In this document: piece after piece, positions 5,693 through 7,836 of the stretch | How positions within the stretch are numbered: the first letter of the stretch is position 1 | How the letters are laid out: each line of letters starts with the position of its first letter | Origin: Planctomycetales bacterium | GTDB taxonomy: Bacteria; Omnitrophota; Gorgyraeia; Zapsychrales; Zapsychraceae | Reading direction: 5' to 3' | DNA: 53,054 bases | Assembly (NCBI GenBank): GCA_005239675.1 | Contig: SBBO01000014.1 | Span: forward strand, 1-53,054 | Position numbers and translations under genes: made by a program | The notes under the pieces: model-generated | Database searches by the model: none | Told to the model about the DNA's origin: nothing | What the model saw: only the letters and a program-made list of their open reading frames with translations

Positions 5693-5813
5693 GTGCACGA
5701 AGCAGCACTTGCTTGATGATTACCCGTAGTAATTCCGGTGCCATAATGCATGGTTATGACGGAAGCAACATTATTTACGCAAGAATATTTGAAGAAAGGA
5801 GGTCATGCATTGT

Positions 5814-6014
5814 ATGGCTAAAGGAACAGTAAAATGGTTCAATAACCAAAAAGGTTATGGCTTTATTTCCACCGAAGCAGGTAAGGATGTCTTCGTGCAT
5901 CATACGGCTATTCAAGGGAGTGGTTATAAGTCTTTAGAGGAGGGTCAGAATGTTGAATTCGAAGTTACGACCGGCCCTAAAGGTGACCAAGCTATTAACG
6001 TGGTTAAGGTGTAA
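5814..6014 (+). CDS. csp: Cold-shock domain protein
   Basis: This is a 66-aa CspA-family RNA chaperone, a five-stranded OB fold that melts mRNA structure at low temperature or in stationary phase. RNP1 (KGYGFI, 13-18) and RNP2 (VFVHH, 26-30) supply the aromatic RNA-binding face. An in-frame ATG at 5805 lies only 2 nt from the AAAGGAGG box (5795-5802); the ATG at 5814 is 11 nt away and gives the standard MAKGTVKWF start, so it was chosen. The long leader with an internal terminator suggests post-transcriptional control. It is followed by two terminators and is probably monocistronic. Confidence 0.95.
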
Positions 6015-6015
6015 T

Positions 6016-6056
6016 AAAACACAAAGAGTTTTGATTAAAAGACTTCTTGTGTTTTT
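6016..6056 (+). terminator. First terminator after the cold-shock gene
   Basis: AAAACACAA (6016-6024) pairs with TTGTGTTTT (6047-6055) and is followed by T. The inner segment can extend the stem imperfectly. The A/T-rich arms make it weaker than the next hairpin. Confidence 0.55.
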
Positions 6057-6057
6057 G

Positions 6058-6087
6058 AAAACGGCTGCTTTCGCGCAGCCGTTTTTA
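6058..6087 (+). terminator. Second, strong intrinsic terminator
   Basis: AAAACGGCTGC-type arm (6058-6068) pairs with GCAGCCGTTTT (6075-6085) around a 6-nt loop, with a T-rich tail. It lies immediately upstream of the intron-like element that begins at 6093. Confidence 0.85.
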
Positions 6088-6092
6088 TTGTG

Positions 6093-6300
6093 GTGCGCCC
6101 GGCAGGGCGCACTTACTTGAAGGTGCAAGTCCTTTATAGGCCTGATAAGAGGAACTGTTAGCCGGACGGCAAGGCGACTTACCTCCTATTTTAATCCGTG
6201 CGTCTTGTAGGGCCTCGGGAGATGTCAGCCCGCTTGTGAAGCGAGGGGTGCTAGGGGCAGTATTGACAGGGGGTAAGTCTTGGCTTAAACTTAAAGTGGA
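6093..6300 (+). mobile_element. Group IIC intron-like 5' fragment (structured RNA remnant)
   Basis: The segment opens with GTGCGCCC-GGCA-GGGCGCAC (6093-6112), a perfect 8-bp hairpin beginning with the group II 5' consensus GUGYG. It continues with GGTGCAAGTCC (about 6122-6132) and AACTGTTAGCC...GGCAAGG (about 6153-6174). From memory these blocks match the start of domain I in bacterial class C introns such as that of Oceanobacillus iheyensis. It lies a few bases behind a terminator, the usual class C target. I find no domain V, no 3' end and no reverse transcriptase, so it looks 3'-truncated. The part after about 6176 folds (GACTTACCTCC with GGGGGTAAGTC, 6176-6186/6269-6279) but does not clearly match the intron. 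The right border is uncertain. Confidence 0.65.
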
Positions 6301-6318: not shown

Positions 6319-6678
6319 ATGACTGTAGGGGATGTAGCAAAGAAGTTTGCCCTATTGCGGATTCGTGAAACACGGGCCACCCGCGACGATTATGAGGAAC
6401 ATGTGATTTATGCAAGCGACATTGAACAATGGACTGCTGCCCTCAAGGATATTTTTGGCCCACCGATCAAGCCGGCAGGGGTAGCCCCCAGCGCTGATAA
6501 TCTGGCGGTGTGTCAAGGACACGGCGGCATTATGAAGAATCAGGTGTTATTCATCAAAGAGCTTGGTAACACAATCCTTGTGGTGATGTTCTGGCCATGG
6601 ATGGATGGATTGCACACGACCTTAAAACTATATCTTGTAGATGGCAAAATAGGAGGGGCACTGCCTTTAAGAAAATAG
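6319..6678 (+). CDS. Hypothetical protein, 119 aa
   Basis: This ORF starts with ATG 8 nt after AAGGTG (6305-6310). The protein is soluble-looking and mixed alpha/beta, with a charged N-terminal half (ETRATRDDYEEH) and a more hydrophobic C-terminal half (ILVVMFWPWMDG). I recognise no family and see no catalytic motif. It lies between the intron-like element and the inverted repeat in front of the radical SAM gene, so it may be cargo of a larger insertion or simply an orphan gene. Frame length and ribosome binding site support real coding; function is unknown. Confidence 0.6.
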   Translation: MTVGDVAKKFALLRIRETRATRDDYEEHVIYASDIEQWTAALKDIFGPPIKPAGVAPSADNLAVCQGHGGIMKNQVLFIKELGNTILVVMFWPWMDGLHTTLKLYLVDGKIGGALPLRK

Positions 6679-6720
6679 TTGACGGCAATGCCGTAACTAG
6701 CGATGTACCAAAAAGAAGAT

Positions 6721-6778
6721 TGTTCTGCTGCTGAGCCACGTATGGCTCAGCAGCAGAACACTGCTAAGCCATACGTGG
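6721..6778 (+). repeat. Perfect 18-bp inverted repeat with an alternative partner
   Basis: TGTTCTGCTGCTGAGCCA (6721-6738) is exactly complementary to 6743-6760 around a 4-nt loop. In addition 6736-6747 is exactly complementary to 6767-6778, so two mutually exclusive hairpins are possible. The candidate ATG at 6742 of the radical SAM gene sits in the loop and stem. No T-run follows, so this is not an ordinary terminator. Confidence 0.85.
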
Positions 6779-7836
6779 GCCGTTATTGGAAGGAACTTGA
6801 AGACGGACGTGTGCTCTGTGAACTATGCCCTCGTTACTGCCATCTAGCCGATGGGCAGCGGGGGTTTTGTTTTGTTCGTCAGAATATTGGCGGCAAGATA
6901 ATCCTGACGACCTATGGGCGTAGTAGTGGTTTTTGCATTGACCCTGTCGAGAAAAAGCCGCTTAACCATTTCTATCCGGGTAGTAGTATTCTTTCTTTCG
7001 GCACAGCCGGCTGCAACCTAGGGTGTAAGTTTTGTCAGAACTGGGACATCAGCAAGTCTCGCGAGTTCGACCGCTTAACAGATCAGGCCTCACCGGTACA
7101 AATTGCCCTTATGGCCAAGGCCATGGGTTGCGTGGGTGTTGCTTTTACCTATAATGATCCTGTCATCTTTGCCGAATACGCTATTGATATCGCTCAGGAA
7201 TGCCACCAGTTAGGAATAAAGACCGTTGCGGTTACTGCAGGATATATGACGGACAAATCCCGTCCGGAATTTTACAGACATATGGACGCGGCCAACGTTG
7301 ATTTAAAGGGCTTCACCCAGGAGTTTTATCGCAATGTGACATTGAGCTCATTGCAACCGGTATTGGACACACTGGTGTATTTAAAGCGCGAAACCGATGT
7401 CTGGTTTGAGATTACGAATCTCCTTATTCCAGAAGTCAATGACAGCGATAAAGAGATCCACGAAATGAGTGAATGGATCGCCCGTGAGCTTGGGGTTGAT
7501 GTGCCGCTACATTTTACCGCATTCCATCCGGATTTCCGCATGAGGGACAAACCCAATACGCCGCCATCGACCTTGACGCACGCACGCGCTATCGCCTTAT
7601 CTAAGGGGCTGCGTTATGTGTATACCGGCAATGTTCACGACTCTAAGGGTGGCAGCACGTATTGCCATAATTGTGGTGGGGTCTTAATCGAGCGGGACTG
7701 GTATCAGCTAGGCGCGTATAACCTGAAAGACAAGAATACGTGTGCGCATTGTGGAACGGTTTGCCCTGGTCATTTTGATGTCAGGCCCGGTAACTGGGGT
7801 CCACGCCGGCTCCCTGTACATCTCGCAGATTTTTAA
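6742..7836 (+). CDS. AmmeMemoRadiSam-system-type radical SAM enzyme
   Basis: This 364-aa protein has the radical SAM cluster motif CNLGCKFC (Cys91, 95, 98). An N-terminal cysteine set (C26, C29, C33, C43) and a C-terminal CHNC plus CAHCGTVCPG pair probably bind further metal. YWKELEDGRVLCELCP, VEKKPLNHFYPG and FTYNDPVIFAEYA match the AmrS/PflA-like branch of the AmmeMemoRadiSam system. The reaction is not established; the usual partner genes (Memo-like and AMMECR1-like) are not adjacent. Start codon is uncertain: ATG 6703 and GTG 6775 are in frame, but 6742 fits the family length best. That ATG is buried in the inverted repeat, suggesting control of translation. Confidence 0.82.
   Translation: MAQQQNTAKPYVGRYWKELEDGRVLCELCPRYCHLADGQRGFCFVRQNIGGKIILTTYGRSSGFCIDPVEKKPLNHFYPGSSILSFGTAGCNLGCKFCQNWDISKSREFDRLTDQASPVQIALMAKAMGCVGVAFTYNDPVIFAEYAIDIAQECHQLGIKTVAVTAGYMTDKSRPEFYRHMDAANVDLKGFTQEFYRNVTLSSLQPVLDTLVYLKRETDVWFEITNLLIPEVNDSDKEIHEMSEWIARELGVDVPLHFTAFHPDFRMRDKPNTPPSTLTHARAIALSKGLRYVYTGNVHDSKGGSTYCHNCGGVLIERDWYQLGAYNLKDKNTCAHCGTVCPGHFDVRPGNWGPRRLPVHLADF

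Follow-up and report, generated by a model that had tools for sequence, protein, structure and literature searches.

Genomic context of the segment

The stretch of DNA analysed here (53,054 nt, hereafter the window), from an uncultured Omnitrophota bacterium, contains a cold-shock domain gene, csp, at positions 5805–6014 of the forward strand (PF00313, E 9.4e-29), which is followed on the same strand by an intrinsic terminator at 6056–6087. This terminator consists of a stem-loop and a T-rich tract, TTATTGTG. The region 6043–6092 folds with an energy of −20.2 kcal/mol, and the stem, when A-U pairs are counted, stops 5 nt upstream of position 6093.

The segment under study occupies 6093–6174 of the forward strand. 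A perfect 8-bp hairpin, GTGCGCCC-GGCA-GGGCGCAC (6093–6112, forward strand), forms its start, and downstream of it the sequence reads TTACTTGAAGGTGCAAGTCCTTTATAGGCCTGATAAGAGGAACTGTTAGCCGGACGGCAAGG. The blocks after the hairpin are GGTGCAAGTCC and then AACTGTTAGCC..GGCAAGG, the last base of which is 6174. Two genes follow in the same direction: ORF119 (6319–6678), which encodes a protein of 119 amino acids and has no family match, and amrS (6703–7836), an AmmeMemoRadiSam radical SAM gene (TIGR04337, E 2e-189). Orthologs of amrS are 83–85% identical in four congeners and served to locate the orthologous locus in these genomes.

Relationship to class C group II introns

A covariance model, R1, was built for intron nt 1–85 from 14 intron copies, with the window left out. 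It matched the window at 6093–6176 with 95.6 bits (E 4.9e-19) and a sister copy in the source genome (G000) with 76.7 bits. The structure of R1 comprises 28 base pairs, 8 of which have changes on both sides, and its covariation score was reached by none of 500 shuffles. Helix 1, to which the hairpin at 6093–6112 corresponds, is invariant partly because this hairpin was used to choose most of the loci.

Homologs of the segment were detected in a number of related genomes. BLAST searches of these genomes gave E values as low as 4.7e-33, and copies elsewhere were 88–95% identical to the window segment. A 20-mer of the element had 32 matches among 384 genomes of the phylum, compared with 0 for the reversed control; the genomes with matches (17 of 384) are scattered. 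The best hits were three copies in one congener, at 94–95% identity, and one in genome G025 at 93%, all of which are preceded by T-rich hairpins. In G025 the homologous 85 nt continue directly into RF02001 (group-II-D1D4-3), with a score of 135.6 bits.

In an organism from another family of the same order, the element L225, which has the same sequence as L108 (G073, MAG BP4.bin41), is identical to window positions 6093–6174 at 81 of 82 nt. This sequence continues into RF02001 (65.1 bits) and then into D5/D6 and the 3' end. Like the window copy, it lies right after a terminator, but the ORF-deleted L225 (about 430 nt) retains more of the intron, namely part of the remaining domain I, the tail of the reverse transcriptase (RT) gene, D5, D6 and the 3' end CCTACTCGATT. 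A complete intron of 1852 nt (L137) was also found in Omnitrophota, which shares its 5' end with the window at 77 of 82 positions. L137 matches RF02001, RF01998 and RF00029 and encodes an intact 469-aa protein with RVT_1 and GIIM. The nearest PDB chain to this RT is GsI-IIC RT (E 2.3e-144).

These related introns share the blocks seen in the window and carry them contiguous with D1, RT, D5 and D6. The segment 6093–6174 represents a bacterial class C (group IIC) intron cut down to its 5'-terminal 82 nt, the start of domain I. The first-pass annotation had proposed a group IIC-like 5' end starting at 6093, and the blocks are as it described. The end point it gave, 6175, lies within one base of the position where homology with the relatives stops, after GGCAAGG at 6174, and the related introns it suggested looking for do exist, including a complete one. 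Similarities to known group IIC introns (RF02001, RF01998 and RF00029 in the relatives, and an intron-encoded protein (IEP) near GsI-IIC RT) include the 5' sequence, the covarying structure, the position after a terminator and the orientation. In contrast to these introns, the window copy consists only of the first 82 nt, perhaps together with a relic of domain VI, and lacks D2–D5 and the IEP.

Searches of Rfam with the segment gave no match at the gathering threshold and only chance-level matches to unrelated families at relaxed thresholds; the best group II match was D1D4-4, with 11.4 bits and an E value of 7.1. Thus, of the covariance-model searches, those with the Rfam group II models returned nothing above threshold, whereas the purpose-built R1 gave a strong match. 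In all class C introns checked (L137, L258, L267, L268, L271, L126, L174, L184, L191 and L209), the RF02001 match starts at intron nt 86, immediately beyond the piece retained in the window, which accounts for the Rfam blank, so this blank does not refute the intron reading. No Rfam model covers the 5'-terminal 85 nt of class C introns, and 5' remnants consequently go unannotated. The present case identifies an unannotated structured element as a retroelement fossil and explains why such remnants escape annotation; very short 5' stubs behind terminators could be taken for host RNA elements. Our literature search found no paper linking group II introns with Omnitrophota, and the copies in this phylum extend the known range of class C introns.

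Target site and distribution of the element

It has been known that class C introns insert after terminators (PMC4424553, PMC3522654). The window element has the same orientation as csp and lies 5 nt after the stem of the csp terminator, which is the target motif and the insertion site; this is the usual place of a group IIC intron. The position right behind a strong terminator had already been noted in the first-pass annotation, although the gap from the stem is 5 nt and not about 8. A similar context was observed for the 135 distinct copies found with the 20-mer. Compared with controls taken 300 nt away, the 50 nt upstream of these copies fold more stably (mean −21.0 versus −11.0 kcal/mol) and their last 12 nt are richer in T (7.8 versus 2.4).

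We then compared the orthologous locus in the congeners. The csp–amrS interval of G002, G004 and G005 has no element at the orthologous place, and the contig of G003 does not reach it. In G001 another IIC subfamily is represented: its 5' end (GGTATGCCCGGCATACC...), which R1 scores at 53.7 bits, sits at the orthologous csp terminator on contig C15, and on contig C75 the D5/D6/3' end of an intron is located immediately before the ORF119 ortholog. Synteny suggests that the ends of these two contigs belong to one intron. Since the element is absent in three congeners and a fourth carries a different subfamily, the insertion in the window is lineage-specific, and so the csp terminator was hit independently by two IIC subfamilies. 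Two other candidates in G001 were set aside: the csp on contig C46 is a paralog in another neighbourhood and was rejected as the orthologous site, and an RT on contig C42 was dropped as a possible IEP, as it matched the RVT_1 model only in part and its contig has no match to an intron RNA model.

A search with a 233-base query showed that the source genome contains a second remnant (L004, G000:C47:5010–5115), which is 88% identical over 85 nt. It lies right after the terminator of a type IV pilin-like gene, reaches the 3' end of the tmRNA gene and is cut at a different point from the window copy. The last bases of L004, TTACGATT, resemble an intron 3' end. A third match in this genome (G000:C23) is located inside a coding sequence, is not preceded by a terminator and was rejected.

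Csp terminators repeatedly carry class C introns or stubs, with at least four independent cases: the window, G001:C15, G001:C46 and G054:C287 (L019).

Origin and fate of the remnant

The absence of domain V and RT downstream, also pointed out at first pass, extends to the whole window and to the source genome: D5 (RF00029) was detected in neither, and model searches likewise found no RF02001 or RVT_1 in either of them. G000 is a MAG of 50 contigs with a completeness of 86.8%, and an intact parent intron could be absent from this assembly. The EBS elements also fall in the portion lost from the window copy. As D5 and an IEP are missing, the remnant is unable to splice or to move on its own; splicing in trans would depend on an intact relative, of which G000 showed none.

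On the basis of alignment, a possible deletion scar, GGACGGCAAGG + CGACTTACCTCCTATTTTAAT, was located at 6164–6195 of the forward strand. GGACGGCAAGG is a near-repeat of the domain VI strand GGACGGCGGAGG, and CGACTTACCTCCTATTTTAAT, the next bases after 6174, resemble the domain VI/3' end ..GACTCCGCCTCCTAC(C/T)CGAT of family members. The p value of this resemblance ranges from 0.05 (genomic null) to 0.16 (shuffle). It is thus only suggestive of a possible domain VI/3'-end relic, and we rejected this stretch as a proven 3' end because the resemblance is not significant.

By far the most likely explanation, to which we assign a probability of roughly 93%, is that a mobile group IIC intron was inserted here by terminator-targeted retrohoming and then mostly deleted, and that the segment is what remains of it. 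Considering the established behaviour of this family, an intron RNP would have reverse-spliced just 3' of the csp terminator in the lineage of the window. About 95% of the element would then have been lost, namely the remaining domain I, domains II–V, the RT gene and, perhaps, the greater part of domain VI, so that only the first 82 nt stayed behind as an inert scar. Judging from other copies, this loss probably took place by DNA deletion, for which the near-repeats GGACGGCAAGG in domain I and GGACGGCGGAGG in domain VI may have been the end points.

Many copies with enough downstream sequence are truncated, and both 5' and 3' pieces are kept in L128, L189, L225 and G030:C189. In addition, 5' stubs of about 17–39 nt were observed at a series of loci (L011/L198, L015, L019, L021, L026, L260, L261, L263, L269, L114, L117, L153, L210, L220 and L221), nearly all of them right after a terminator and with the remaining intron largely or wholly gone. 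Their ends seem to be clustered near nt 17–39, with some near nt 80–92; RNA helix boundaries lie at these positions, and so do short direct repeats to the 3' end. This sample is biased by the use of 5' seeds and by assembly breaks, and we claim no mechanism for the stubs past ordinary deletion.

Such stubs may also be viewed as products of failed retrohoming: after reverse splicing, degradation of the intron RNA would proceed from the 3' side until a stable 5' structure is reached, and the ribonucleotides left on the 5' exon would be copied to DNA. Scars of this kind would end at RNA domain boundaries (about nt 20–31 and nt 80–85), and for the one in the window this would be where the first closed RNA domain (nt 22–85) stops. 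If true, 5' stubs of class C introns behind terminators would be a distinct type of scar. The large number of 5'-only stubs and the proximity of their ends to those of helix 1 and of the nt 22–85 domain fit this scenario, as does the consideration that aborted cDNA synthesis should leave 3' ends rather than 5' ends. However, the 3' sequence kept in the four truncated copies with both pieces, and an ACTCGAT-like end in L114 and L221, point to ordinary internal DNA deletion. The direct repeats at the stub ends and the way in which the sample was gathered also speak against failed retrohoming, and we regard it as improbable.

Still less probable is a domesticated RNA, whose 5' domain would have been kept for use by the host, either as a regulator of the downstream ORF or by giving csp an additional terminator or a processing stem. 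The first-pass annotation had left the choice between a truncated fossil and a domesticated RNA; the former agrees with our results and the latter does not. It is true that the retained part is still structured (MFE −36 kcal/mol, z −2.04) and differs from the intron of its relative L225 at only 1 of 82 positions, but such identity is equally expected from a recent insertion. In addition, domestication is difficult to reconcile with the empty orthologous sites in G002, G004 and G005, with the different end point of the other copy in G000, which adjoins tmRNA, or with the scattered, mobile-element-like distribution of matches. An assembly artefact, through which the MAG would show a mis-joined or collapsed version of a full-length multi-copy intron, may be considered as well, since multi-copy introns break contigs within the element in related MAGs. 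Nevertheless, the window contig crosses the junction into the expected orthologous ORF119 and amrS, and G000 has no D5, RF02001 or RT sequence at all, which makes this possibility the most remote of those considered here.

Accordingly, the window element is an ordinary truncated retroelement fossil of a known intron class, with no sign of domestication, and is best read as a neutral scar. Truncation or inactivation is reported for the majority of bacterial group II introns (PMC4424553). Fragmented copies have been described in bacterial genomes (PMC4424553, PMC3522654), and these introns most often end up truncated and inactive. The window element is similar to such copies; it differs in being from Omnitrophota and in falling below the 100-bp minimum used in PMC3522654.

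Two further structures were observed among the truncated copies. In G030:C189 (L055/L068), a terminator is followed by a class C intron of miniature size, about 0.25 kb, which has no ORF and in which the 5' end and the first part of domain I are joined to D5, D6 and the 3' end. In G046:C10 (L018, 1501–1734), a 31-nt class C 5' stub stands directly before a different class C intron, as though the hairpin of the stub had acted as a terminator-like target for the latter.
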